64,000 nt of DNA from Tildeniella nuda ZEHNDER 1965/U140 (GTDB lineage Bacteria > Cyanobacteriota > Cyanobacteriia > Leptolyngbyales > Leptolyngbyaceae): NCBI GenBank assembly GCA_019358895.1, contig JAHHIG010000023.1:1-64000 (forward strand). Reading direction: 5' to 3'. Shown in pieces: positions 3,598 to 60,590 of the stretch. A program made the position numbers and the translations under genes. Below the pieces are notes generated by a model. It saw only the letters and a program-made list of their open reading frames with translations, was not told the origin of the DNA and did no database searches. Position 1 is the first letter of the stretch; each line of letters opens with the position of its first letter.

Positions 3598-4218
3598 ATG
3601 TCTAGTAGCAACTACCCGAAAGCGTGGTCGCGTTTTACTACCCAGATGCGTAAGCCAGATGGTGAAACTCCTAAAGAGTTAGTGGATAATTTTGGGCAGT
3701 TAGCTAGATGGTCGGCTCGATTTAGACTAGCAAAAAGCTTCAAATCACTAGATTTAGGCGATGCCTATTCAGGCTCAGATACGCCTCAACTGTATTCAGC
3801 AATTACTAGAATTTTTCTTGTTTACTCAGCCTTTGAGATTTATTGCGACATCATCTGTTTCAAGTCTAGTAAAGAATCTCAAATAAAAGCGCTTCAAGAT
3901 GCTCTATCGCAACAAGCAACTATTAAAACCATTCGTGACTTAGATCCGCAGAATGCTTTTGCAACATTTCTTTTACAGCATTTGACAGGTGTCAAGCTAA
4001 AACGAACGATGTGTGATTTCATAGGCAACGAAAAGGAGATTAATGTTAGTTGTTTAGCTAAATCTATACGCCATGTTTTTGCTCACGGCATCTTAACAGC
4101 TAACGCGATGGGTTTATCGCCAAAACGATTTGATCAAGTGTCTCAAATCATCTCAGACTTCTTGTTAAATTGTATGGATAAAGATTTTGATGAGCGTATA
4201 CCTGCAAACCTTGACTAA
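3598..4218 (+). CDS. Hypothetical protein, AT-rich
   Basis: A 206-residue soluble protein without a family I can name. It is noticeably richer in A+T than its neighbours and lacks HIP1 sites, which hints at recent acquisition. There are no membrane segments or catalytic motifs; the composition is mixed alpha. A segment with YSAFEIYCDIICF in the middle and SIRHVFAHGIL near residue 160 resembles the HEPN-like pattern R-x4-6-H, but this is weak. Its stop codon TAA at 4216-4218 lies inside the displaced hydrolase tail copy (4215-4293), so the gene end and the duplication boundary coincide. The coding call is reasonable; the function is unknown. Confidence 0.6.
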   Translation: MSSSNYPKAWSRFTTQMRKPDGETPKELVDNFGQLARWSARFRLAKSFKSLDLGDAYSGSDTPQLYSAITRIFLVYSAFEIYCDIICFKSSKESQIKALQDALSQQATIKTIRDLDPQNAFATFLLQHLTGVKLKRTMCDFIGNEKEINVSCLAKSIRHVFAHGILTANAMGLSPKRFDQVSQIISDFLLNCMDKDFDERIPANLD

Positions 4219-4293
4219 TCAAACTCGCCAAACTCTAGAATGGGGCTAGTTTGTTCTAGTGTAGGGTAGTCGCTTAGCAGGTTGGCGATCGCT
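4215..4293 (-). pseudogene. Displaced 3' tail of the hydrolase gene at 5041-5973
   Basis: This 79-bp segment matches 5041-5119 with seven mismatches, all transitions and no gaps. Read on the minus strand it encodes the last residues of the neighbouring hydrolase (AIANLLSDYPTLEQTSP, ending EFGEFD and TAG). In coding terms there are five synonymous changes, one Gly-to-Ser change, and one mismatch at the repeat edge. The vapBC pair lies exactly between the two copies. The fragment has no upstream reading frame of its own. Confidence 0.85.
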
Positions 4294-4362
4294 GTTTCAA
4301 TCCCTTAGCTATACTAAATTGAAGACCGATCGCCCTGAAGCTGAGCGCCCTGTAGTTACGCC

Positions 4363-4575
4363 ATGCAAACCACTATCAATCTTGATGAAGTCCTTCTCAA
4401 CGAAGCTTTCCAATTAACCAATCTTACCAATCAGGAAGAGCTCATTAATCTGGCGTTGCAAGAACTTGTAAGGGCGCGCAGAAAGAAGAACCTTCTCGAC
4501 CTCGCTGGACAAATTCGCTTGGCTCCAGACTTCGACCACAAGGCACTGCGCGCAACTCGTCATGTTGCTGATTGA
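4363..4575 (+). CDS. VapB-type antitoxin
   Basis: A 70-residue protein beginning MQTTINLDEVLLNEAFQLTN, the typical short N-terminal strand and helices of VapB/AbrB- or MetJ/Arc-like antitoxins (type II antitoxin of the VapB family with a DUF2191-like pattern). The C-terminus (LLDLAGQIRLAPDFD) is the usual toxin-wrapping tail. It overlaps the toxin gene by 14 bases, which implies translational coupling. It would bind its own promoter and neutralise the PIN-domain toxin. The TA pair lies between duplicated copies of the hydrolase 3' end. Confidence 0.85.
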   Translation: MQTTINLDEVLLNEAFQLTNLTNQEELINLALQELVRARRKKNLLDLAGQIRLAPDFDHKALRATRHVAD

Positions 4576-4984
4576 CACATCAGTTTGGGTCAGCGTCTTT
4601 CGCGATGGTCTTCGACCGACCGAAGGTCAACGAAGTGGTCAAATCCGCCAGCAACTAGAGACACTAATCGCCGATCGTGAAGTCCTACTGACCCGCTTCA
4701 CTCAGCTTGAACTGCTTCAAGGTAGCCTGAACGAGCAAGAATGGACTCTCCTCTCAACCTACCTTGCGACACAAGATTACATTGAACTCACAGTTCATTC
4801 CTGGCAAGCTGCTGCACGCATTTACTATGATTTGCGTCGCCAAGGCTTGACCGTTCGCAGTCCAATCGATTGCTGTATTGCTCAAGCCGCACTAGAAAAT
4901 AATTTACTTTTGATCCACAACGATCGCGACTTTGAAACCATTGCCCAAGTGCTATCGCTCCAACATCTCCGCTTTCAAGCTTGA
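4562..4984 (+). CDS. vapC: VapC toxin, PIN-domain ribonuclease
   Basis: A 140-residue PIN-domain endoribonuclease. The conserved acidic residues are visible: Asp in MLLIDTSVW near the N-terminus, Glu in LTRFTQLELLQG near residue 50, Asp in SPIDCCIAQAAL near residue 103, and Asp in HNDRDFETIA near residue 120. These coordinate Mg2+ in the family, whose members cut tRNA or other structured RNA. It starts within the antitoxin gene (14-base overlap). The length is normal and all key residues are present, so it is probably an active toxin. Confidence 0.92.
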   Translation: MLLIDTSVWVSVFRDGLRPTEGQRSGQIRQQLETLIADREVLLTRFTQLELLQGSLNEQEWTLLSTYLATQDYIELTVHSWQAAARIYYDLRRQGLTVRSPIDCCIAQAALENNLLLIHNDRDFETIAQVLSLQHLRFQA

Positions 4985-5040
4985 GCGTTTCCCTTGAAGC
5001 CTGGATAGTCGTCTATGGTCGAGAAGCAAAATGCTATCAA

Positions 5041-5973
5041 CTAATCAAACTCGCCGAATTCTAGAATGGGGCTGGTTTGTTCTAGTGTGGGGTAGTCGCC
5101 CAGCAGGTTGGCGATCGCCAAATTCGCTACCCGACTGCTCCTCCAATAGCGGCTGTGGTCTGCCATCAATCCAAGCGCCATCGTCACATCGCCCATCTGC
5201 CGTTTGAGGAAATTACGTTCGCCCAGGTAATGGTCACGAAAGTACAGCGATGAGTCGTCTAGCTCCAGACTAGCACGTATGGGGTACGCAAAGATATCTG
5301 ACGCGTGGATGACATTGACCCAGCGCAGCGGCTCAGACGTATAGCGGCTGGCAAACTGCTTTAAGCGTTTTGCATTAGGGCTGAGAAGCTGGTTGAAAAT
5401 AAGAATAGGGGAGCCGATCGTGGTGATGCTTCTGAGTTTCACTTTGCGCCCTTCACTTGCTCCACTCAACCCCTTAATCGCATTGCGGACATAGAACGCG
5501 GGATCAGAGCTATCAAAGCTGTCTGAAAACAAAAGATCCCAGAGAATGACGCTGCCAAGAGAATGCGCCACGATATGCAGGTCTTCCTCAAACGGGTTGT
5601 CGGTCAAAAAGGTGAGAAACTGCACTGCGATCGTTCGCCTTGCTTCGCGCCCTTGCATTGTGTTGAGATAGTGAAAAATGTCGTTGAAGAAGCCTGTAAT
5701 CAGTTGTTCTCGACGCAGACGATAGTGAAACACGTCATCAATGTCAGTCTGAGGCTGATCCCACTTAAACGCTTCCAGATCTTGCTGAATCCAGTCCCAA
5801 AGCTGATTGGTGCTGCCCAGAGTATCGCCCCAGAAGCAAGCATAGAACTCTGGAACCGACAGCCCTTGATCGGAAAACTCACTAATAATGCGCGATCGCA
5901 ACGGGTCGGCATAGCCACTTTGCCTCACCGATGCTCCATGCATAAACCAGACCAACATTGCACCCGCTCCCAA
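5041..5973 (-). CDS. Alpha/beta hydrolase-like protein (lipase-type HSLG motif)
   Basis: A 310-residue protein with the nucleophile elbow HSLGS near residue 138 (LHIVAHSLGSVILWDLL) and an N-terminal strand LVWFMHGASV that could supply the oxyanion region. The overall pattern fits serine esterases or lipases that act on large substrates; the substrate is unknown. An internal start at Met6 (5958) with GGGAGC upstream is an alternative. It follows the 287-residue hydrolase gene after only 16 bases, so the two form an operon. Its last 79 bases are duplicated at 4215-4293 on the far side of vapBC. Confidence 0.75.
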   Translation of the reverse strand: MGAGAMLVWFMHGASVRQSGYADPLRSRIISEFSDQGLSVPEFYACFWGDTLGSTNQLWDWIQQDLEAFKWDQPQTDIDDVFHYRLRREQLITGFFNDIFHYLNTMQGREARRTIAVQFLTFLTDNPFEEDLHIVAHSLGSVILWDLLFSDSFDSSDPAFYVRNAIKGLSGASEGRKVKLRSITTIGSPILIFNQLLSPNAKRLKQFASRYTSEPLRWVNVIHASDIFAYPIRASLELDDSSLYFRDHYLGERNFLKRQMGDVTMALGLMADHSRYWRSSRVANLAIANLLGDYPTLEQTSPILEFGEFD

Positions 5974-50633: not shown

Positions 50634-51154
50634 ATGGGACTTTTTGATGCAGTGATGAGCGCGGTCAGTAATCCTGGTCAGCAAGGAAGCCCGGATCAGC
50701 TTGGTGCCATTCTTAATACTGTGCAGCAACTGAGTGGCAGTCATGGGGCGGATGCAGGTACAACACAAACGCTTGTGTCGGTGGTCGGTGGCTATGTGCG
50801 ATCGGCACTGCAACAACAGCAGGCAACCGCAGGCACTGAACAGGCGCAGGCAACCGTCAATCAATACGGCGGTACTGGGGCAAACCCGCAGGCTGTAGAG
50901 GCTGTGTTGGGTCCAGTCATGCAGCAACAGGTCGTGCAAGATTTAGTGCAGCGAACTGGACTTGACCCGCAAACAGTGCAGTCAATGCTGCCAACACTGG
51001 TGCCACTCGCGCTCAAGTTTTTGCAGAGCGGAGCGCATACTGACAATCCTCAGGCTGGCAACCCCGTGCTCAGTGCCTTTTTGGATGGCAACCAGGATGG
51101 CAACATTGACTTGGGCGATGCTCTTAGTGTGGCTGGTAAATTTTTTGGGCGTTG

Positions 51155-51155
<1 letters not shown>
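50634..51155 (+). CDS. DUF937-like protein with a calcium-binding-type loop
   Basis: 173 residues, Gln- and Gly-rich in the N-terminal half (MGLFDAVMSAVSNPGQQGSP), followed by helices (VLGPVMQQQVVQDLVQRTGLDPQTVQSMLPTLVP in part) of the DUF937 pattern. It ends FLDGNQDGNIDLGDALSVAGKFF, a dockerin/EF-hand-like Dx[DN]xDG loop that probably binds Ca2+. Function unknown. A heptamer array follows directly, beginning at the stop. Confidence 0.8.
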
Positions 51156-51278
<123 letters not shown>

Positions 51279-51286
51279 GGCTGTCG

Positions 51287-52123
51287 CTAAAGCAAGAACG
51301 CTTCGATCGCGGCAGCGGCTCCGTCCTTTTCAACGTCAGGGGCGACCCAGTTTGCTAAAGCTTGAACAGGTGCTGGTGCATTGCCCATCGCTACGCCAAC
51401 GCCAGCATACTCAATCATCTCAACGTCGTTGAAGTTGTCGCCGATCGCCATCACGTTTTCTGCCTTCAGTCCTAAATGTTCTTCTGCCAAATAGCGTACC
51501 GCTGTTCCTTTGCTGACCAGCGGATTGGTTGCCTCAAAAAACGTTGCCACCGATTTTGTGAGGTAGAGTTCGGCGGGCGTGTAGAGACTCTGCAAATTGC
51601 CTAAGAGTGTGCTGATTAAATCGACATCATCACTCAGCGCCAGCACTTTCGTCGGTTCGGTGGTGAGTGCTGTCCGCAAATCGCCTATAGGAATGGGCTG
51701 CACGTTGGAACGAATAGCATACTCTTTGGTCTCAGCGGTGATTTCACGCACGTAAAGCTGGTCGTTGATGTAAAAATGCACGGAGAGCAGCGATCGCAGC
51801 TCTGGTTGCTCAAAATAGTCTAAAAGCTGAAGTACCAGTGACTTCGGTACGGTCCAGTGGCGATACACAGTATCCGTTCTTGGGTCTTGAATCAGAGCAC
51901 CTTGATACGCCATGAGCGGCAGCGTAGAACCGATCGCCTCATGAAAACGGATGGCAGCACGATACATTCGCCCTGTGGCGATCGCCACTTGAACCCCCTT
52001 TGCCTGTGCCGCACGGACTGCTTCAATTACAGGCTTACGAATCTCGTTTGAAACGCCCGCGATCGTGCCATCAATATCGAGTACGAGGAGTTTGATCTCT
52101 GCGGAAGTAGCTTGGTTTGGCAT
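51287..52123 (-). CDS. Cof-type HAD-IIB hydrolase
   Basis: A 278-residue HAD phosphatase of the Cof subfamily. Motif I is LLVLDIDGTIAG near residue 11 with both Asp, motif II VAIATGRMYRAA near 47, the Lys of motif III lies in VSKGTAVRYLAEEHLGL near 206, and motif IV is AIGDNFNDVEMIEYAG near 231. The type IIB cap lies between motifs II and III. Substrates of this group are sugar phosphates, FMN or pyridoxal phosphate; not assignable here. Confidence 0.93.
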   Translation of the reverse strand: MPNQATSAEIKLLVLDIDGTIAGVSNEIRKPVIEAVRAAQAKGVQVAIATGRMYRAAIRFHEAIGSTLPLMAYQGALIQDPRTDTVYRHWTVPKSLVLQLLDYFEQPELRSLLSVHFYINDQLYVREITAETKEYAIRSNVQPIPIGDLRTALTTEPTKVLALSDDVDLISTLLGNLQSLYTPAELYLTKSVATFFEATNPLVSKGTAVRYLAEEHLGLKAENVMAIGDNFNDVEMIEYAGVGVAMGNAPAPVQALANWVAPDVEKDGAAAAIEAFLL

Positions 52124-52165
52124 AAGAGGAAAGGATAAAGGATAAAGAATTTTGAGTTTTGGGAG

Positions 52166-52258
52166 CGGTCAGCAGTCAGCGGTCAGCTATCAGCTATCAG
52201 CTATCAGCTATCAGCTATCAGCTATCAGCTATCAGCTATCAGCTATCAGCTATCAGCT
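52166..52258. repeat. TCAGCTA heptamer tandem array
   Basis: Nine to ten almost perfect head-to-tail copies of the 7-bp unit CAGCTAT, preceded by two GTCAGCG units. The unit length of 7 makes the array readable in all frames without stops, so long open frames here are artefacts. Confidence 0.9.
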
Positions 52259-52386
52259 TTTGTCTTCATACTTTAGCCTTCTGCCTTCTGCCCTCTGCCT
52301 TTTTCCCCGATCGCTCATTAGTTTTCGTTCATTACCAAATTAACCGCTGATAATGTGAAGGCAAATCTCATAGTAGCTGGTAGGCT

Positions 52387-53280
52387 ATGGCTGAGGCACA
52401 GGGTCGTCATTGGGCAAGTCGTCAGGTATTGTTAGCTTCGCTGTGGCTGACACTGCTCGTTTTGGTTGTAAAGGTTTGGATTGGTTGGGCAACGCAGTCG
52501 TTGAGCTTGCTTGCGGAGTCGCTACAGACATTGATTAATGGATTTAGCATTCTTCTCAGTGCGATCGCCACGACATCGCCGTATCCGACCAGTCGAGAGA
52601 CGGGGGGGCATGGTCGACTAGAAGCCATTTTAGCGCTGCTATTGGCTGCGTTTATGGGTTTTGCCTGTCTGAGTCTATTGGTAGTGTCGGTACAGCAATT
52701 GGAGGCGATCGCCCAAGTTGCTACGACCTTGCTGCCTGTGAGGATGAGTCCACCGCTCTTTCAGCTTTTGGGTGTGGTGATGGCGACGAACTTTTGCCTC
52801 GCCTGCTTTCAACGCTATGAGTCGGGGCTTTTAGAAAACCCTGCCCTTCGCTTCAGCGCCAATCATCTGTTTCAGGATACATGGCTGATGCTGCCTGTAC
52901 TGGCGGCACTAGTGGGTGTAAGACGTGGTTATCCATGGCTAGATCCGCTGCTAGCAGTACTGTTGCTGATTGCAGCCGTCTGCAACTGCTGGCAGGTTTT
53001 CAACTGGCAGTTGCCATCATTGATGAAGCAAATGGCGATCGCCCCCGAAGCATTGGCACAAACGATTCATCAGGTCGAAGGGATCACCCACTGCTACGGC
53101 ATCCAGTCTCGCGGCGTGGTCGGTCGTCAGGTCTTTGTCGAAATGCACCTGATTCTGCATCCAGAGTGCATGAACGTTGCACGTAGCATTGCCGAACGGG
53201 TAGAACGGGTGATCCGCGATCGCTACGGTCCTGCAAAAGTGGTGATTTATATTGATAGCGATCGACCCAAGAGCGATTAA
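52387..53280 (+). CDS. Cation diffusion facilitator (CDF) transporter
   Basis: A 297-residue divalent-cation/proton antiporter of the CDF family. Six hydrophobic segments are visible. The first includes ASLWLTLLVLVVKVWIGWATQSLSLLAESLQTLINGFSILL (in part), where Asp of the typical HxxxD is replaced in places; the last includes YPWLDPLLAVLLLIAAVCNCW. The cytoplasmic C-terminal domain is IEGITHCYGIQSRGVVGRQVFVEMHL. TM2/TM5 metal residues look atypical, so the substrate is uncertain. The last 50 bases (PKSD end) are repeated at 54258-54310. Confidence 0.85.
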   Translation: MAEAQGRHWASRQVLLASLWLTLLVLVVKVWIGWATQSLSLLAESLQTLINGFSILLSAIATTSPYPTSRETGGHGRLEAILALLLAAFMGFACLSLLVVSVQQLEAIAQVATTLLPVRMSPPLFQLLGVVMATNFCLACFQRYESGLLENPALRFSANHLFQDTWLMLPVLAALVGVRRGYPWLDPLLAVLLLIAAVCNCWQVFNWQLPSLMKQMAIAPEALAQTIHQVEGITHCYGIQSRGVVGRQVFVEMHLILHPECMNVARSIAERVERVIRDRYGPAKVVIYIDSDRPKSD

Positions 53281-53310
53281 ACCTACAGCGGTTTTCATTT
53301 GCATTCGCCA

Positions 53311-53336
53311 CACCCTACACCCCACACCCCATACCC
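53311..53336. repeat. TACACCCCACACCC repeat at the left edge of the TA island
   Basis: CACCCTACACCCCACACCCC followed by ATACCC, just behind the CDF gene. An inverted copy lies at 54523-54553 and a related one in rlmN at 10438-10461. Confidence 0.7.
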
Positions 53337-53472
53337 ATCTTGATTAGGCTGTGGCTTATTGATCTAACAACGGCTGTAAGATCGCCGAAGTTTTACAGCC
53401 CTTGGCAAGTTTAGAACAAGGCAGCAAAACCATGTGCTTGGAAAAACCGAGGATGTGAAGTGTTTCGTAGAC

Positions 53473-53670
53473 CTAAAAAGCCTTTGGTAAGCCTGCCTGC
53501 TTCAAAACGGCATTTGCTGTATGGCGAGATTTGATGAAACTGTCTACCACAAAGCGGCGATCGGTAATGGGGCTATACCAGATTTCATGATCTCCTTTCC
53601 CCTGCCGCTCAAAGGAGCAGCCTGCTTTTACCAAAAGCTTCTTGAGTGGCGGAGTCAGCGATGCAGGCAT
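53473..53670 (-). CDS. hicA: HicA-type mRNA interferase
   Basis: A 65-residue HicA toxin with the double-stranded RNA-binding-like fold. The catalytic His is visible in GKGDHEIWYSP near residue 27 (G-x-H pattern), preceded by LLVKAGCSFERQ. The frame ends KQAGLPKAF. Its start follows the hicB stop without a gap (53671), so the pair is translationally coupled. HicA toxins cut mRNA; HicB neutralises and autoregulates. Confidence 0.9.
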   Translation of the reverse strand: MPASLTPPLKKLLVKAGCSFERQGKGDHEIWYSPITDRRFVVDSFIKSRHTANAVLKQAGLPKAF

Positions 53671-53916
53671 TTAGGATGCTACCTGAATGAGTTCCTGCCG
53701 ATGGCTGGTGAGTTGCACCGCGATCGCGCCTGTATAATCAGCAGCAATCACATGATTGAGCAGCAGCAGATTAGGGATGAGATCCCGCAGCTTTCGACTC
53801 AGTGCTTCAATGGTATCGGCTTCCGTGGCTAAGCCTGGCACATCGTCACTCGTTGCGATCCAGACCAATGCATCATTGTCCCAGATGGCATCAACCCGAT
53901 AGACGATTGGTTCCAT
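53671..53916 (-). CDS. hicB: HicB-type antitoxin (DUF1902)
   Basis: An 81-residue DUF1902 protein, a HicB-like partial RNase H fold without the usual C-terminal DNA-binding ribbon. Landmarks are YRVDAIWDNDALVWIATSDDVPGLATEADTIEAL in part and IPNLLLLNHV. It directly precedes hicA. Upstream, only 24 bp away, stands an orphan ParD-like antitoxin gene on the same strand. Confidence 0.88.
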   Translation of the reverse strand: MEPIVYRVDAIWDNDALVWIATSDDVPGLATEADTIEALSRKLRDLIPNLLLLNHVIAADYTGAIAVQLTSHRQELIQVAS

Positions 53917-53940
53917 GCTTGCCTCCCTTAAGCGTTAGCG

Positions 53941-54192
53941 TTACCGTAAGTGCAGATTAGCTCGAATTTGCTGCATTGCGGTTGCACCATCAACCACTTC
54001 ACCCCGTTGAGCCGCTTCCCAGCCCAGCAACGCATCCTGTTGCAGGTCTTGCGATCGCCCTTGATAAGGGTCGTTTTGTTGCTCCAGCAGTTGCACGCCT
54101 GCCAAAATGACCTCGATCGCAGTTTGATACTTACCACTGTCGATCTGGCGCTGTACTAACTGCTCTAATTCGGGTGACAGAGTGATTTGCAT
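53941..54192 (-). CDS. ParD-family antitoxin without a ParE partner
   Basis: 83 residues from the ATG at 54192: MQITLSPELEQLVQRQIDSGK is the ribbon-helix-helix start of ParD antitoxins, with helices QTAIEVILAGVQLLEQQ and a toxin-binding tail GATAMQQIRANL. No ParE follows; the next gene on the strand is hicB 24 bp downstream. Either the toxin was lost or the three genes act together. The frame reaches 54330 upstream, but that extension is encoded by the displaced CDF tail, not by homologous sequence. Confidence 0.82.
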   Translation of the reverse strand: MQITLSPELEQLVQRQIDSGKYQTAIEVILAGVQLLEQQNDPYQGRSQDLQQDALLGWEAAQRGEVVDGATAMQQIRANLHLR

Positions 54193-54257
54193 AGGGCACT
54201 CCAGACGATCGCGATGCACTTCATTGTAGGCGAACCTTGCTTCACGGGGGCGGGCAT

Positions 54258-54310
54258 CTGCAAAGGTAGCGACTATATCGATAGCGATTGACCCAAGAGC
54301 GATTAAACCC
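54258..54310 (+). pseudogene. Displaced 3' tail of the CDF transporter gene
   Basis: Repeats 53231-53284 with seven substitutions and one lost base. In frame it reads Y-I-D-S-D-stop-P-K-S-D-stop against YIDSDRPKSD-stop in the intact gene, so Arg has become a TGA. There is no upstream CDF sequence. The hicBA-parD block lies between the copies. Confidence 0.8.
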
Positions 54311-54311
54311 A

Positions 54312-54344
54312 AGATCCCCGACTTCTTCAAGAAGTCGGGGATCT
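54312..54344. repeat. AGATCCCCGACTTCTT hairpin repeat, copy 3
   Basis: A 33-base palindrome, AGATCCCCGACTTCTT and its exact complement around one central base. It lies exactly between the CDF tail fragment and the polA head fragment, so it was probably the terminator-like element of the ancestral CDF gene. Confidence 0.85.
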
Positions 54345-54354
54345 GATCGGCTAG

Positions 54355-54513
54355 CGAATTCTCTACAATAGGGCTTGTTCTCCACTGCTATTAAACCAAA
54401 CCGTTGTCTGCCAACTCTTCTTCCCAACCAAAGCCGCTCATTCTCCTCATCGACGGGCATTCGCTGGCATTCCGTTCTTACTTTGCGTTTGCCAAGGGGC
54501 GCGACGGTGGACT
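54355..54513 (+). pseudogene. Displaced 5' end of polA with its promoter
   Basis: Matches 56836-56982 over the promoter (GAATTC, TACAAT at 54364-54369 versus 56844-56849) and the first codons. From a TTG at 54404 it reads MSANSSSQPKP and then LILLIDGHSLAFRSYFAFAK followed by GRDGGL, identical to the intact polA protein over 26 residues or more. All nucleotide differences in that coding stretch are in third positions. The frame ends soon after at a TAG in a GTGTGGGG repeat. Confidence 0.88.
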
Positions 54514-54522
54514 ATCAAAAAA

Positions 54523-54553
54523 GGGGATAGGGTGTGGGGTGTAGGGGATAAGG
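54523..54553. repeat. Inverted TACACCCCACACCC repeat at the polA-head breakpoint
   Basis: GGGATAGGGTGTGGGGTGTA and following GGGGATAAGG, the complement of 53311-53336 apart from small differences. It begins about ten bases after polA similarity stops and supplies the stop codon of the truncated polA frame. Confidence 0.75.
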
Positions 54554-54619
54554 TATGGTGAGTCGTTATGGTTGATACACTGGTTTCAGGTTGATGAGGC
54601 GACACGCTTAAGGGAAAAC

Positions 54620-54871
54620 ATGATGCCAGATAGTGTTGAGTTGCAGGTTCCGTTTACGTCACTGATGGATGCCATTGCGTCCTTAGGGCTGGAGGACAAG
54701 CTGAAGCTGCTAGAACTGTTAGAAGCACAGATTGCTGACGCGGAAGACGACTTGCTGGAGCACGACCCAACGATGCTAGCGGAAGTGGCAGAGGCGCGAA
54801 GAGCCTACAGAGCAGGAGAGTACCAGACGCTTCAGGACTACATCGCCGATCGGTCTGAACAAGCCTCATGA
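54620..54871 (+). CDS. RelB/addiction-module antitoxin
   Basis: 83 residues from the ATG at 54620 (preceded by AAGGG); the ATG at 54623 is equivalent, and the frame is open to a TTG at 54572. The sequence LMDAIASLGLEDKLKLLELLEAQIADAEDDL is a helical antitoxin of the addiction-module (RelB-like) type common in cyanobacteria, followed by EYQTLQDYIADR. It overlaps the toxin start by four bases (ATGA), giving coupled translation. Confidence 0.8.
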   Translation: MMPDSVELQVPFTSLMDAIASLGLEDKLKLLELLEAQIADAEDDLLEHDPTMLAEVAEARRAYRAGEYQTLQDYIADRSEQAS

Positions 54872-55128
54872 GCTACACGGTTGTCATTCCTAAACCCGTG
54901 CAGAAACAGCTTGATAATCTATCAAATGAGGTGCGAGAGAGCATGGTAGAGAAGATCTCACTACTTGTCGAAAACCCTCGCCCATCAGGAGTCAAAAAAC
55001 TAAAAGGGTTTGATCACGAATACCGCATTCGAGTCGGAGACTATCGCGTTCGCTACGAGATCGACGATCAAGAGTCTCTTGTAGTGATTTTAAATTGCAG
55101 GCATCGAAAAGATGCTTACAGAAATTAA
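54868..55128 (+). CDS. RelE/ParE-family toxin
   Basis: 86 residues with the compact RelE fold: MSYTVVIPKPVQKQLDNLS, VENPRPSGVKKLKGFDHEYRIRVGDYRVRYEIDD in part, and the C-terminal NCRHRKDAYRN with the basic residues used for ribosome-dependent mRNA cleavage. Overlap with the antitoxin gene is ATGA. The Arg-rich C-terminus and the R-I-R-V-G-D-Y-R-V-R-Y motif are complete, so it is probably active. Confidence 0.92.
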   Translation: MSYTVVIPKPVQKQLDNLSNEVRESMVEKISLLVENPRPSGVKKLKGFDHEYRIRVGDYRVRYEIDDQESLVVILNCRHRKDAYRN

Positions 55129-55140
55129 CCAGGAGGAAGG

Positions 55141-55365
55141 ATGAAGAGCCGTTATACGATCCTCATTCAGTGGTCTGGTAAGGATCAGTGCTACGTCGTC
55201 ACTCTGCCTGAGTAGGGAGAGTTTTGCCACACACATGGAGAAACCTACAGTGAAGCCTTAACCAATGCTCAAGACGTTCTGGAATTATTGATTGAATCTG
55301 CTGTCAAACAGGGTGAATCGCTACCGGAGCCGAACGTCTTTGGAACTTCATTGCAGATTGCCTGA
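55141..55365 (+). pseudogene. hicB-type antitoxin gene broken by a nonsense codon
   Basis: An AGGAGGAAGG ribosome binding site precedes ATG. The frame reads MKSRYTILIQWSGKDQCYVV then TLPE, TAG at 55213-55215, and continues GEFCHTHGETYSEALTNAQD to a TGA at 55363-55365. Intact HicB homologues have Trp at the stop position (LPEWGE), so one G-to-A change (TGG to TAG) explains it. No hicA follows. It lies directly behind the relE-like toxin. Confidence 0.85.
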
Positions 55366-55400
55366 GGCATCAGAACGAAAACCCAGGTTGTGCATCTGGA

Positions 55401-55799
55401 CTGATGCATGAAACCGTTGCGCCTGAGCCAGCGAAACGTCTAGCCGAGCAATCCTGCAAGCTCGTTGAGCTATCTCTGACATAGGATGAGCCAGTTCTGA
55501 GATGAGTTGAGTCGTTACATGACCTGGATGAGCTATATCAAAGCTCAGTCGAGTGAGCAAAACGATGTCTCAAGTAAAGGTTGATCCAGGTCGAGTCATC
55601 TCTGAATTCGGTCGAGCAGTCTCCCAGATAAGTCAAGCTGTCTTTGCGCTAAGTCGAGCAGTCTTTTAGCTAAGTTGAGCGATCTCTAAGCTTGGTCGAG
55701 CGATCGCTGAACTGGCTCAAGTGATCTCTGAGACTGGTCGAGCAATCGATGAACTAGGTTGAGCAATGTCTGAACTGGCTCAGGCGATCGCTTGATTGA
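55401..55799 (+). repeat. 21-bp degenerate tandem repeat, about 19 units
   Basis: Units of exactly 21 bp with consensus GTCGAGCNATCTCTGAACTGG run from about 55401 to 55799 without insertions or deletions. The last 16 units, from 55464, are best preserved; the first ones are more diverged. Read in the third frame the units spell heptads like RAIAELA, QVISETG, RAIDELG, a coiled-coil-like pattern, but TGA, TAG and TAA interrupt it. It lies in the TA island between the broken hicB and a vapBC pair. Confidence 0.85.
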
Positions 55800-56005
55800 A
55801 GGCGATCGTCGCTTCAGTCAAGCCTCTCTTCGTTCTACGTGGAGTGCTGCCTGAAGAACTTGATGCTCTTTAGGACTGGATAACTTCTGTAGGTCGTCGT
55901 GAGCGCCCACTCGGTGATGGAGTCAGGTAACCGCTGTTTGAGTTTGTTTTAGGATGGAGGGCAGAAGTCAAATCTAGTTGAAACATCATCTCCAAAACTC
56001 TACTT

Positions 56006-56272
56006 ATGCACCTCTCACCTGCTTTGCAACAGGCGATCGAGCAAATTGCAGCCAGTCAAGGTATTTCACCAGAGCAATTTATCATCCAAACCCTGACAGA
56101 AAAAATCGATCGCCTCAAGCAACCTGTTTCAACTCCCTCAACGTCTCACACTGGACTGAGACAAAAGGACGGTCTTCTGGTCTTCGACACCGAGTCTCTC
56201 GATCACATTGACTTTGATGCACTCATCACTCAAAGTCGTGAAGAATGTGACTGGGAGCAGGTAGGACTGTGA
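56006..56272 (+). CDS. VapB-type antitoxin
   Basis: 88 residues: MHLSPALQQAIEQIAASQGISPEQFIIQTLTEKIDRL (in part) is a ribbon-helix-helix-like N-terminus, followed by a tail GLLVFDTESLDHIDFDALI that would wrap the PIN toxin. It overlaps the toxin start by GTGA. Promoter and operator lie in the 200 bases behind the 21-bp repeats. Confidence 0.85.
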   Translation: MHLSPALQQAIEQIAASQGISPEQFIIQTLTEKIDRLKQPVSTPSTSHTGLRQKDGLLVFDTESLDHIDFDALITQSREECDWEQVGL

Positions 56273-56706
56273 AAGTTCTATTTGACACCTCTGTGATCAT
56301 TGCTGCTTCCCTTCCAAAGCACCCAAGTCATGCACCCTGCTTTGTTCAATTACAGGCAGCAAAACTGAGTCAAATTCAAGGCTGTCTTTCTACCCATAGT
56401 CTGGCAGAACTATACTCGGTGATGACTCGAATGCCCAGCCAACCCCGAATGGCTCCCCAAGCAGCCAGAACGTTAGTTGAGAGCTACCTCCAATATCTGG
56501 AGGCGATTCCATTAGAAACAGCAGACTATCAAGCTGAGATCGCGCAAATGACAGCCCTTAACTTGCCGGGTGGTGGAGTTTTTGATGCTTTAATCGCTCA
56601 AGCTGCTCTCAAGGTATCAGCAGACAGAATTCTGACACTCAATCCTAGCCACTTCACTCGATTGAACGCTGCGATCGCCCAAAATACACAGGTTCCTGGA
56701 CAGTAA
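56269..56706 (+). CDS. vapC: VapC toxin, PIN-domain ribonuclease
   Basis: 145 residues with the PIN acidic residues: Asp in MKVLFDTSVIIAA at residue 6, Glu in STHSLAELYSVMTRMP near 46, Asp in GGGVFDALIAQAALK near 106, Asn/Asp region in ILTLNPSHFTRL near 125. The start is GTG. Complete and coupled to the antitoxin gene by a four-base overlap. The third acidic site is intact but the last is Asn, as in many VapC. Confidence 0.9.
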   Translation: MKVLFDTSVIIAASLPKHPSHAPCFVQLQAAKLSQIQGCLSTHSLAELYSVMTRMPSQPRMAPQAARTLVESYLQYLEAIPLETADYQAEIAQMTALNLPGGGVFDALIAQAALKVSADRILTLNPSHFTRLNAAIAQNTQVPGQ

Positions 56707-56765
56707 TTAAGTCAGTGTAATTAGCGATCGCATCCACAGGACAGCATATACAAGCAGCGCCCTCA

Positions 56766-56815
56766 AGACCTCGGAGGTTTTGGAAACCTCTGAGTCTGTC
56801 AAACCTTCGAGGTCT
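56766..56815. repeat. AACCTCGG-type palindromes upstream of polA
   Basis: GACCTCGGAGGTTTTGGAAA, CCTCTGAG and ACCTTCGAGGTC are palindromic relatives of the AACCTCGG element seen at 13795 and 22113, without its core. The position is just upstream of the polA promoter. Confidence 0.5.
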
Positions 56816-56835
56816 AAGACCAACGCCGATCGCCT

Positions 56836-56849
56836 GAATTCCTTACAAT
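56836..56849 (+). promoter_or_regulatory. Probable polA -10 region
   Basis: GAATTC and TACAAT (56844-56849) lie 28 bases before the TTG start and are conserved in the displaced copy (54356-54369), while the sequence between promoter and start has drifted. Conservation between diverged copies supports a promoter function. Confidence 0.6.
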
Positions 56850-56877
56850 AGATTTTGTCTCCTTCAATGGCATTCCC

Positions 56878-59802
56878 TTGGCTTCTCCTGCTGATCCAAC
56901 CAAACCGCTCATTCTCCTCATCGACGGGCATTCACTGGCGTTCCGTTCCTACTTTGCGTTTGCCAAAGGTCGGGATGGTGGGCTTCGCACGAAAAGCGGG
57001 ATTCCCACCAGCGTCTCTTTCGGCTTTCTCAAAGCGCTGCTAGAAACGATGGAGGCAGAAAAACCGCAGTACGTAGCGATCGCCTTTGACCTGTCCGAAA
57101 AGACCTTTCGCCACGATGCGGATGATACCTACAAAGCGGGCAGAGCGGAAACGCCGGAGGATTTCATTCCCGATATTGCGAACCTGCAAGAGTTGCTGTT
57201 GGCATTGAACCTGCCCATTCTCACCGCAGAAAACTACGAAGCGGATGACGTGATTGGGACGCTGGCACGGCGGGCGAAGACGGATGGCTTTCTGGTCAAG
57301 ATTTTAAGTGGCGATCGTGACCTGTTTCAGCTAGTCGATGCCGAAGCCACCACGAAAGTCCTCTATCTGAGCACTGTTTACGGTAAAGGCACACCGCCAC
57401 CCAGAGAGTTTGGCGTGGAGCAGGTGAAGGAGAAAATGGGGATCTTGCCGTCGCAGGTGGTGGACTACAAAGCGCTGTGTGGCGACAGTTCCGACAACAT
57501 TCCTGGCGTAAAAGGCATTGGGGATAAGACGGCAGTGCAGCTACTCACCACCTACGGTTCGCTGGAAAAAGTGTACGAGTCGCTGGATCAGATTAAAGGT
57601 GCGGTGCGGCAGAAGCTCGAAGCGGGCAAAGACGAGGCACGACATTCGCAGTGGATGGCGCAGATTCACCTGGATGTGCCGCTGGAAGTCGATTGGGAGT
57701 CGTGCCGCATCCGCGATTTCGATGAAACCGTCGTGAATGAACTGCTCGAAAAGCTGGAATTTCGCACCTTTATCGATCGCATTCAGAAAGTGCATCGTCA
57801 GTTCAAAGGTGTTCAAGAGGAAGCGTCCGAGGATGCAGCCTCAGCAGAAAATCAGAAAGCGGCGGCTACTCCTCAGTACCGGGAAGATGGCGACCTGTGG
57901 TTCTTTAGCGCTGAAGATACGATCGCCGCGCAAAAAGTCCTGCCCGTCGCCATTACGCCGCACATCATCGATACGCCTGAGAAGCTGACGGAGTTAGTCG
58001 ATCGCCTCAAAACCTTCACCAGCCCCGAAATCCCCGTTGCCTGGGACACCGAAACCACTGCTTTGGAACCCCGCGATGCTGATCTCGTGGGCATTGGCTG
58101 CTGCTGGGGTGCTGAGCTAGACGACATGGCGTATATTCCGCTGGGACATACCAATGGCGGCAATCTTGATAAAGTAGCCACGCTCGAAGCACTGCGCCCC
58201 ATTCTCGAAAGCGCTGACTATCCCAAAGCGTTGCAAAATGCCAAGTTCGATCGCCTCGTGCTGCGCTGTCAGGGCATCAAACTGGCAGGCGTAGTCTTCG
58301 ATCCCATGCTGGCAAGCTACGTCCTCAACCCTGACGAGAGCCACAATCTAACCGACCTGAGCAGCAAGCACCTGAACATTACGGCTCAAAGCTACAAAGA
58401 TTTGGTGCCCAAAGGGAAGACGATCGCCGATTTAGACGTTCCGGCAGTCGCGGACTACTGCGGCTTAGATGCCTACACCACGTTTCTGCTCGTCCCCAAG
58501 CTCCGCGCCTTGTTGGAGCCAATTCCTGCTCTGCATCGGTTGTTGCTGGACGTTGAGCAACCGCTAGAGCCTGTCCTCGCAGAAATGGAGTACTGCGGGG
58601 TGCATATTGACGTTGCCTATCTCAAGGAACTTTCGCAGAAGTTGGAGACGGACTTGGCGGCGATCGAACTCCATGCCTACGACGTTGCGGGACAAAAGTT
58701 CAACCTCGGTTCTCCTAAACAACTCAGCGACTTGCTGTTTAATACCCTGGGACTGGACACCAAAAAATCGCGCCGCATGAAGACGGGCTTTTCCACCGAT
58801 GCCGCGACGCTGGAAAAACTGCAAGGCGATCATCCCGTCATCGATGCCATCTTGGAACAGCGCACCCTGAGCAAGCTGAAGTCTACCTACGTTGATGCGT
58901 TGCCGCTGCTGGTGCGTCCCGATACCCATCGCGTCCACACCGACTTTAATCAAACTGGCACGACTACAGGACGGCTCTCTTCTTCCAATCCCAACCTGCA
59001 AAACATTCCGATTCGTACTGCCTTCAGTCGCCAGATCCGCAAAGCGTTTGTCTCCGAACCCGGTTGGGTGATGGTCGCAGCCGACTATTCCCAAATCGAA
59101 CTCCGCATCTTGACCCACCTGAGCCAGGAACCCATCTTACTCGACACCTACCGAGACAATGGGGACATTCACACCCTGACCGCAAAACTGCTGCTCGAAA
59201 AAGACGACATCAACTCAGAAGAACGCCGCCTCGCCAAAATCATCAACTTCGGCGTGATTTACGGCATGGGTGCCCATCGGTTTGCACGAGAAGCTGGGGT
59301 AAAATTTAACGACGCTAGGCTGTTTATCGATCGCTTCAACGAACGCTACTCTAAAGTCTTTGAGTACCTCCAGCAAATGCAGCGAGAAGCGATCGCCAAC
59401 GGCTACGTCGAAACTATTCTCGGTCGCCGTCGCTATTTCAACTTTGCCAGCGAATCGCTCAAGCGGTTGAGAGGCACGGAACCAGGGGCGATCGACCTCA
59501 CCAAACTCAAACTCCGCGACCAGTACGATGCCGGATCGCTCCGTGCCGCTGCCAACGCGCCCATTCAAGGCTCCAGCGCCGACATCATCAAAATTGCGAT
59601 GGTCAAACTGCACGACCTCATCGCACCGTATCAGGCACGCCTCTTACTCCAAGTCCACGATGAACTCGTCTTCGAGATGCCCCCCAACGAATGGGCAGAA
59701 CTGGGACCCAAAATCAAAGCCACGATGGAATCAGCCGTCGAGCTATCCATTCCCTTAGTCGTGGAAATTCACGCTGGCGAAAACTGGATGGAGACAAAGT
59801 AG
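56878..59802 (+). CDS. polA: DNA polymerase I
   Basis: A 974-residue PolA for gap filling and primer removal. The N-terminal 5'-3' exonuclease (LILLIDGHSLAFRSYFAFAK, then YKALCGDSSDNIPGVKGIGDKTA near 198), an apparently active 3'-5' exonuclease (VAWDTETTALEP near 390, DEDD) and the polymerase domain (AADYSQIELRIL near 736, RRLAKIINFGVIYGMG near 785, LLLQVHDELVFEMP near 925) are all present. No ATG is available in frame; the start appears to be TTG at 56878, as in the displaced head fragment. It is flanked on both sides by toxin-antitoxin genes. Confidence 0.97.
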   Translation: MASPADPTKPLILLIDGHSLAFRSYFAFAKGRDGGLRTKSGIPTSVSFGFLKALLETMEAEKPQYVAIAFDLSEKTFRHDADDTYKAGRAETPEDFIPDIANLQELLLALNLPILTAENYEADDVIGTLARRAKTDGFLVKILSGDRDLFQLVDAEATTKVLYLSTVYGKGTPPPREFGVEQVKEKMGILPSQVVDYKALCGDSSDNIPGVKGIGDKTAVQLLTTYGSLEKVYESLDQIKGAVRQKLEAGKDEARHSQWMAQIHLDVPLEVDWESCRIRDFDETVVNELLEKLEFRTFIDRIQKVHRQFKGVQEEASEDAASAENQKAAATPQYREDGDLWFFSAEDTIAAQKVLPVAITPHIIDTPEKLTELVDRLKTFTSPEIPVAWDTETTALEPRDADLVGIGCCWGAELDDMAYIPLGHTNGGNLDKVATLEALRPILESADYPKALQNAKFDRLVLRCQGIKLAGVVFDPMLASYVLNPDESHNLTDLSSKHLNITAQSYKDLVPKGKTIADLDVPAVADYCGLDAYTTFLLVPKLRALLEPIPALHRLLLDVEQPLEPVLAEMEYCGVHIDVAYLKELSQKLETDLAAIELHAYDVAGQKFNLGSPKQLSDLLFNTLGLDTKKSRRMKTGFSTDAATLEKLQGDHPVIDAILEQRTLSKLKSTYVDALPLLVRPDTHRVHTDFNQTGTTTGRLSSSNPNLQNIPIRTAFSRQIRKAFVSEPGWVMVAADYSQIELRILTHLSQEPILLDTYRDNGDIHTLTAKLLLEKDDINSEERRLAKIINFGVIYGMGAHRFAREAGVKFNDARLFIDRFNERYSKVFEYLQQMQREAIANGYVETILGRRRYFNFASESLKRLRGTEPGAIDLTKLKLRDQYDAGSLRAAANAPIQGSSADIIKIAMVKLHDLIAPYQARLLLQVHDELVFEMPPNEWAELGPKIKATMESAVELSIPLVVEIHAGENWMETK

Positions 59803-59955
59803 TAGTGCCGCTTAGTAAGCGAAAGCGATTGAGACGTAACCGAACGCTTATTTGTTAGCCTTCAAAGTTGGGCAGAAATTCTTGACCAGGAGTGCTTTCA
59901 AGTAATAGAGGCAGCAGCAATTTACAATGGCTAAAGAGTGGCTAGGAAAAGGCTG

Positions 59956-60174
59956 ATGACGTTACAAGAAATCCAAAATCAAGCGTTGCAGTTGTCTACT
60001 GGCGATCGCTGGCAGTTAGTACAAGCTCTCCTGGTCTCTTTGAAGCAGGAAGCAACCCTCAAGCCAAAGCGGGGACTGTCGCGTTTACGAGGTGTTGCTA
60101 AGCTTTCGGCAGATGCAGGAGAGAGTAACGCCCAGGCAGATTATGTAACTTATCTGACCGAGAAGTATCAGTAA
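59956..60174 (+). CDS. Antitoxin of a VapC-type pair
   Basis: 72 residues from the ATG at 59956: MTLQEIQNQALQLSTGDRWQLVQALLVSLKQEA is the short helical antitoxin type paired with PIN toxins in cyanobacteria, followed by RGLSRLRGVAKLS and a tail DYVTYLTEKYQ. The stop TAA overlaps the toxin ATG (TAATG). A GTG upstream at 59938 is the alternative start. Confidence 0.75.
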   Translation: MTLQEIQNQALQLSTGDRWQLVQALLVSLKQEATLKPKRGLSRLRGVAKLSADAGESNAQADYVTYLTEKYQ

Positions 60175-60590
60175 TGCGAGTTTTAATTGATACAAATGTT
60201 GTTCTTGATTTTTTACAAGAACGAGAGCCGTTTGTGGGCAATGCCGCAAGGTTATTTGAGCGTATTGATGCTGGAGAAGTTGAGGGGTTTATTGCAGCAA
60301 CGACAATAACCAACATTTACTACATTGTTCGTAGGGTAGCAGGAAGAGCAGTGGCGCAAGATGCTATTACTCAGGTGTTAAGCGATCTAACCATTTGTAC
60401 CGTCGATTTAGCGGTGTTGGAACAAGCGCTTGAGTTAAACTTCGAGGATTTTGAAGACGCAGTACAGTATGCTTGTGCGGTAGTGTATGGCGTTGATGCG
60501 ATCGTCACTCGTGATGCTTCTGGATTTATAAATGCAGAAATTCCTGTCGTGTTGCCTGAAGCTATTGAACCTATCAATGGTACTGAGTGA
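60174..60590 (+). CDS. PIN-domain toxin (VapC-like)
   Basis: 138 residues of the PIN_3 type: MRVLIDTNVVLDFLQEREPF with Asp6, AATTITNIYYIVRR in place of the Glu motif, NFEDFEDAVQYACAVVYGVDAIVTRDASGF near 86-115 (in part) with two Asp. The order FEDFEDAVQYA..IVTRD is the hallmark of this PIN subgroup. It is coupled to the preceding antitoxin gene. Probably an active ribonuclease. Confidence 0.9.
   Translation: MRVLIDTNVVLDFLQEREPFVGNAARLFERIDAGEVEGFIAATTITNIYYIVRRVAGRAVAQDAITQVLSDLTICTVDLAVLEQALELNFEDFEDAVQYACAVVYGVDAIVTRDASGFINAEIPVVLPEAIEPINGTE

Follow-up and report, generated by a model that had tools for sequence, protein, structure and literature searches.

Chromosomal toxin-antitoxin (TA) genes are common and often move, and their route of entry outside recognisable mobile elements is unclear. 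Some islands, such as SXT in prfC and the tRNA islands, restore the end of the gene that they enter. The closest precedent for the locus described here, judged by analogy, appears to be the insertion of restriction-modification genes with long, variable target duplication, as described in the accessible parts of PMC3874152 and PMC3031569; Nobusato et al. (2000) is cited for this process in PMC3031569, PMC3874152 and PMC2654758. In Escherichia coli, single crossovers of circularised fragments left gene-end duplications of 109-950 bp (PMC3240628, available part). Among the papers listed, judged by title and opening lines of the abstract and with subscription journals mostly outside the coverage, no description of TA insertion with long target duplication in cyanobacteria was found. 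Here we analyse a 64,000-nt stretch of DNA (the window) on contig C12 of the 6.08-Mb genome of Tildeniella nuda (G000), in which a scar of apparently stranded gene ends at 54258-54513 lies between two blocks of TA genes, with a working CDF cation-efflux gene on the left and polA on the right.

We read the scar as the resident CDF-polA junction, with TA blocks inserted on both sides and at least the polA-side block acquired from a related strain through the shared gene end, and we give this reading a probability of roughly 0.7. Like the islands mentioned above, such an insertion supplies a new end, leaves the old end on the far side and keeps the gene working; unlike them, the window inserts hold no integrase detectable by Pfam and the duplicated sequence is different at every locus. 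As with restriction-modification insertion in the accessible text of PMC3874152, small addictive gene sets sit in the chromosome, unlinked to a known mobile element, between long, variable direct duplications (~100 bp). The cargo here, however, includes TA and Uma2 genes, and the two copies at polA, probably also at dnaN, look like different alleles, one end being apparently imported. Homology-facilitated illegitimate recombination, or single-crossover integration of circularised fragments, uses homology at one gene end, as we propose here, and single crossovers duplicated that end, but in contrast to the laboratory constructs in the available part of PMC3240628 the present cases are natural, repeated and often carry TA cargo.

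The probable old ends of CDF and polA

The scar and its two parent genes comprise the following features.

52387..53280, + strand: working CDF cation-efflux gene (Pfam Cation_efflux and ZT_dimer above cut-off)
54258..54309, + strand: scar, decayed old CDF 3' end (86.8% identity over 53 nt to 53231-53283, E 9e-12)
54312..54344, + strand: scar, dispersed-repeat palindrome in the former CDF-polA spacer (from its fold; many own-genome copies)
54356..54370, + strand: scar, putative old polA promoter core, allele A (from position, a -10-like TACAAT and a 15-mer pattern)
54404..54513, + strand: scar, first codons of old polA (54424-54513 against 56896-56984, 90% over 90 nt, E 1.7e-27)
56836..56850, + strand: putative promoter core of the working polA, allele B (15-mer search)
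56878..59802, + strand: working polA, DNA polymerase I (Pfam DNA_pol_A 468.5 bits, with 5'-3' and 3'-5' exonuclease domains)

The original prediction placed a CDF 3' fragment, a hairpin and a polA 5' fragment next to each other, and all three were recovered side by side. The CDF-tail copy, in which 36 nt reach 94% identity, carries a 1-nt deletion and an in-frame TGA. The hairpin (54306-54350) folds at -27.4 kcal/mol, with a z of -7.1 against 200 shuffles. Chance similarity was rejected as the source of the CDF and polA matches on their E-values. With 40 of 139 candidates scored, the own genome gave 67 matches to 54230-54590. About 60 were copies of the hairpin palindrome, many of them counted on both strands, and among the scored matches the CDF-derived and polA-derived portions of the scar had hits of comparable strength only to their own parent genes. 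The palindrome being a dispersed repeat, we rejected the hairpin as evidence of the origin of the scar. An assembly error is unlikely; three further assemblies (G001, G005 and G010) also carry a second polA promoter copy upstream of polA. An Rfam search of 52000-60500 returned nothing reaching the gathering score.

Positions 54404-54544 form an open frame of 46 amino acids with a polA-like N-terminus and the putative promoter core upstream, which could, by its sequence, still be expressed. That selection keeps the scar for a function, through this frame with its own promoter or through a junction RNA, strikes us as very improbable. The promoter core is intact and the polA head has no nonsense change, and in Synechocystis a regulatory role is reported for a 44-amino-acid peptide similar to the N-terminus of aconitase (PMC7336809, available part); yet G005 and G001 retain the promoter part only, the CDF part is broken, and a recent scar would look identical.

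We searched 58 genomes for CDF and polA, seven of them from the genus itself (G000 to G006); G010 and G016 belong to other genera. The congeners are as follows.

G001: Stenomitos frigidus ULC18
G002: Leptolyngbya sp. FACHB-321
G003: Centralia_MAG_596
G004: Leptolyngbya ES-bin-22
G005: Lyngbya sp. HA4199-MV5
G006: Stenomitos rutilans HA7619-LM2

These relatives are fairly distant, with third codon positions 64-76% identical in polA and 51-66% in CDF (6 genomes compared); the CDF protein is 83-85% identical in all six congeners, and no polA was detected in the assembly of G004. Six of the 58 genomes (G000, G001, G005, G006, G010 and G016) have CDF and polA on the same strand of a single contig, separated by 1.1-5.0 kb.

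The proposal that CDF and polA were once direct neighbours gains support from two of these relatives. In G001 the native end and 3' flank of the intact CDF gene correspond to scar positions 54274-54347 (98.6% over 74 nt, some of which is sequence of the dispersed palindrome). G002 has a complete polA that is preceded, without interruption, by a CDF tail, a degraded hairpin and promoter A, with 79% identity over 240 nt of the scar, and its full CDF gene is located on a different contig. G005 has the order CDF, CDF-tail piece, hicAB, second CDF-tail piece, a gene shared with G006, promoter A, relBE-hicB, promoter B and polA, and its CDF scar continues into sequence found 3' of the intact CDF gene in G006. 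Because the pieces from G001, G002 and G005 can be combined, the ancestral order was likely CDF, hairpin, promoter A and polA. The left joins of the inserts are dissimilar in G000, G001 and G005, and the gene end is what insert and host have in common. We also noticed that the CDF tail beside polA in G002 (L067 6126-6177) is itself a scar, so that the CDF end occurs twice in the G002 lineage, together with a larger rearrangement.

Two putative promoter alleles and the probable origin of the working polA end

The 15-mer pattern GAATTCYYTACAATR has two matches in the whole G000 genome, one in the scar and one at the working polA. Across the seven genus genomes it has ten matches. Nine of these precede polA, with G000, G001 and G005 contributing two apiece and G002, G003 and G006 a single one each; the remaining match lies elsewhere in G005, and G004 has none. 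A related pattern matches twice in G010, both times before polA and 1.06 kb apart. In that genome (L069 6150-7230) the second promoter copy stands 1.06 kb upstream of the first, with an open reading frame (ORF) in between that presumably resembles a REP-type transposase.

Allele A is the sole type in G002 and G003, and allele B the sole type in G006. Both G000 and G005 have allele A in the scar and allele B at the working polA. As the scar has the type seen alone in G002 and G003, and type B belongs to the working polA, the most fitting reading is that the scar represents the old ends. The B leader (63 nt, first codons included) is 90-97% identical among G000, G001, G005 and G006, and third codon positions of polA among these four genomes are 69-76% identical, well below their leader identity. 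The working leader of G000 is 68-79% identical to those of G002 and G003, and 48% to its own scar.

From the KPL codons on (82 nt), scar and gene differ at nine sites, all third-position and silent; seven of the nine scar states and eight of the nine gene states are found in congeners, and the scar has two private sites, as compared with one to four in the working genes of congeners. The 8-9 codons before KPL differ in sequence and length (LSANSSSQP versus LASPADPT), in a stretch that also varies between species. A different explanation is a long target duplication, in which 50-200 bp of resident sequence at the target were doubled through a staggered cut or by copying; both ends would then be resident and have diverged later, as in the restriction-modification precedent (PMC3874152, accessible part). 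We consider this explanation unlikely. It is at odds with the different promoter alleles of scar and gene, and decay of an in-place copy would introduce non-silent changes into the conserved part of polA, of which the scar has none (9 of 9 differences silent, P 0.0013 under our estimate for in-place copying). On sequence grounds the two polA heads resemble alleles whose divergence took place in different genomes, which would make a relative the most likely source of the new head and its TA block, by one-sided homologous recombination. Third codon positions of the toxin gene are 85% identical between G000 and G005, compared with 73% for polA and 60% for CDF, which indicates that sharing of the block postdates the split of the genes. 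Support values within the genus are 47-67 in the polA tree, and the spread of allele B is for this reason not placeable on the species tree; no mosaic signal is visible along polA in 300-nt windows.

The mechanism we propose starts from incoming DNA that carries the end of a neighbouring gene next to TA genes. This DNA would recombine with the resident gene through the shared end, by a single crossover if it is a circularised fragment or by one-ended homologous integration if it is linear, and the other side of the insert would join to unrelated sequence. The host gene would thereby be completed by the incoming end, and the resident end would be stranded beyond the insert. On the left, the working CDF gene would carry a replacement 3' end. 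The CDF scar is probably the older one because it has the deletion and the in-frame stop, while the polA scar is undecayed, and the CDF side would accordingly have been inserted before the polA side. The homologous step, the single-crossover geometry, the foreign source of the CDF end and this order of events are all inferred. The prediction of two insertions, each bringing a fresh gene end, is supported for polA by its alleles A and B and is tentative for CDF; more than two events seem likely from the arrangement in G005, because hicAB sits inside the CDF tail there.

Gene-end copies elsewhere in the genome

To place the locus in context, 2.43 Mb of G000, with 1833 ORFs of at least 120 amino acids, were scanned for copies of gene ends within 8 kb of parents of at least 150 amino acids. 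Within this distance 14 rows were direct and 2 inverted; beyond 8 kb, 2 were direct and 4 inverted. The direct rows reduce to nine pairs once the four rows on C35, which are tandem paralogues, and a single row of 38 nt (C11:528500) are dropped, the inverted rows being left unpruned. The nine are CDF and polA plus seven more, and eight of the copies are 3' ends, that of polA being the only 5' end. Direct duplications of the order of 100 bp flank the inserts (53, 90, 79, 98 and 189 nt among others). Five of the nine inserts hold a toxin family and a sixth holds Uma2. The parents include dnaN, a NACHT/HEAT protein, an SbcC-like ATPase and an ABC transporter ATPase. Copies would include the whole gene end because only such insertions leave the gene intact, a pattern that selection would explain; the scan looked at gene ends only. 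The further inserts, and a separate scar within the window, are as follows.

After dnaN: Pfam Uma2
Further pairs: Pfam BrnT; DUF6887 and DUF4926; HTH_17, PIN and DUF433
C28 pair, 5.3 kb: Pfam short-chain dehydrogenase, aldehyde dehydrogenase and AraC regulator
C37 pair, 0.3 kb: nothing scanned
4214..4292, - strand: separate scar, copy of the 3' end of the ORF 5041-5973 (- strand), 92.4% over 79 nt
4363..4984, + strand: vapBC pair between that scar and its parent ORF (Pfam VapB_antitoxin 61.2 bits, PIN 42.2 bits)

A search for the empty site of 4214-5118 found congeners matching the gene body, the cassette and the downstream part at separate places.

Pooled over the nine pairs, coding differences at the three codon positions number 17/9/52, so that 52 of 78 are at third positions (P 1.9e-9 against one third; P 5e-4 against 0.476, our own estimate of the third-position share for in-place copying followed by decay). 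The lean is seen at polA (0/0/8 in that alignment), dnaN (1/2/12), C28 (0/0/4), the ORF at 5041 in the window (1/0/5), C30 (5/2/11) and CDF (1/1/4).

At dnaN, G003 has the gene followed by Uma2 without a scar, in a match of 83% over 1148 nt to G000 that ends where the G000 scar starts. G001, G002, G004 and G005 have dnaN (84-87%) without that Uma2, and no match was obtained for dnaN of G006. The last 98 nt of the working G000 dnaN differ at 6 sites from G003, 9 from G002 and 14 from G001, G004 and G005, and the stop region GTGCGTAGCTAA is common to G000 and G003 only; over a longer stretch of dnaN, G002 is closest to G000 (87%). The dnaN end and Uma2 would fit a G003-like source, with the scar partly decayed or from an unsampled lineage. 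Both the scarless G003 arrangement and the 12 of 15 dnaN differences at third positions speak against a long target duplication. The polA case fits one-sided homologous integration, and dnaN does likewise with reservations.

An unbiased scan identified 28 low-copy direct-repeat pairs with a spacing of 150-6000 bp, which together take up 1.6% of the DNA surveyed; all 28 were kept for a test of PIN genes, some being simple-sequence or tandem regions. The test covered the 17 of 29 PIN genes that lie in the 2.43 of 6.08 Mb. Seven of these 17 lie inside repeats, versus 25 of 1818 other ORFs (Fisher P 4e-9); a further three of the 17 stand immediately beside a repeat pair and were scored as lying outside it. 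Among the other ORFs of 120-200 amino acids, 13 of 499 were inside repeats (Fisher P 6e-7), and none of 20000 circular shifts reached seven PIN genes inside repeats. At each of two loci (C9:706434-708075 and C35:184065-185736), three direct-repeat copies surround a couple of small inserts, which hold a PIN gene and one other gene, as though a single site had served on two occasions. Local tandem duplication or replication slippage could have made the duplicated ends, with TA genes entering between the copies afterwards; the direct orientation, the short distance and these three-copy loci agree with it, but the two promoter alleles and the enrichment of PIN genes between repeats are left unexplained, and we regard it as hardly credible.

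Several observations weigh against reading the scar as a resident junction beside an imported gene end. We looked among relatives for CDF directly followed by polA with its spacer, as the original prediction had suggested; G001 and G002 hold parts of this empty junction, and the intact arrangement was present in none of the sampled genomes. The scar leader reaches no more than 60% identity with that of G002, the best match of those compared, so that allele A is matched in its core and not closely beyond. The CDF pair has too few differing sites to decide by codon position. In G001 allele B stands at both sites, in a perfect 57-bp duplication that flanks 663 bp and is accounted for just as well by duplication in place; the G001 insert starts inside relB and resembles a broken donor end. 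The dnaN scar differs at 15 sites from its gene, at 15 from G003 and at 18-21 from the other congeners, and has five private sites, so that part of this divergence may be due to decay. Three of the nine pairs have little or no third-position bias (C11:594 5/1/5, C11:704 1/2/2, C37 3/1/1). Finally, several inserts (747 and 725 nt) have roughly the length of a single TA pair and therefore look like a cassette moving as a unit, not a random fragment; with flanking repeats specific to each locus, they count in favour of a long target duplication. Given these inserts and the pairs that lack third-position bias, there is room for true target duplication at some loci, and both processes may act. The origin of both copies from the resident target, which we understand as the defining feature of the restriction-modification process, is not what we find at polA; C11:594, C11:704 and C37 would fit it.

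The TA blocks and what the scars may record

Between the scar and its parent genes lie the following TA features.

53473..53670, - strand: hicA-like toxin gene, left block (Pfam HicA_toxin 33.8 bits, cut-off 27)
53671..53916, - strand: DUF1902 (hicB-like) gene, left block (Pfam DUF1902 74.5 bits; read as hicB from its place beside hicA)
53941..54192, - strand: parD-like antitoxin gene, left block (Pfam ParD_antitoxin 25.1 bits, cut-off 21)
54617..54871, + strand: relB-like putative antitoxin gene, right block (ORF named from its place; without a Pfam match at E 0.001)
54868..55128, + strand: relE/parE-like toxin gene, right block (Pfam ParE_toxin 43.1 bits)
55141..55365, + strand: hicB-like putative pseudogene with an internal TAG (translation; named by resemblance)
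56006..56272, + strand: probable antitoxin partner of the PIN toxin (ORF named by position; no Pfam match)
56269..56706, + strand: PIN-domain (VapC-like) toxin gene (Pfam PIN 41.7 bits)

TA blocks had been predicted on both sides of the scar, and Pfam bears this out with HicA, DUF1902 and ParD on the left and with ParE and PIN to the right of it. Neither presumed antitoxin in the right block has a Pfam match. An 89% identical stretch to 54588-55390 occurs in G005. Relatives of the hicB-like pseudogene in G001 and G005 are without the internal TAG. Positions 55430-55800 hold a degenerate GAGC-type repeat array, which recurs in the CDF-polA interval of G001 and G006, and in G003 ahead of polA.

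No integrase was found among the 14 window ORFs run against Pfam, a set that includes CDF and polA and leaves out the hicB-like pseudogene and shorter ORFs. The Pfam-scanned ORFs also contain no transposase, and the duplications of 53 and 90 nt are not short; the polA/CDF locus thus shows neither the transposase nor the short target duplication of an insertion sequence or transposon. The only candidate for terminal inverted repeats is a 29-nt inverted pair of GGGTGTGGGG-type filler (53313-53341/54518-54546), and similar filler occurs at the duplicated ends C11:704762 and C30:301815. Further to the left, short tandem repeats of GGTTAGC and ATCAGCT type (51154-51275 and 52162-52261) stand on either side of the ORF 51287-52123, which we take to be HAD-like.

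In G000 and G005, relBE is placed behind the putative old polA promoter. We tentatively suggest, as a possibility still short of an even chance, that TA and Uma2 genes spread between species as units of a gene end plus a cassette, which would use homology to the host gene end instead of an integrase, hand over a working end and leave the stranded old end as a mark of arrival. This might be a main route of entry of VapC-type genes in G000, and a newcomer such as relBE could land behind an old host promoter. A stranded gene end beside TA genes documents the manner, the side and the approximate time of their arrival. Such ends are searchable in any genome, and the codon positions of the differences tell an end copied from the target from an imported one. 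In essence, these scars suggest how TA genes slip in beside important genes without breaking them.

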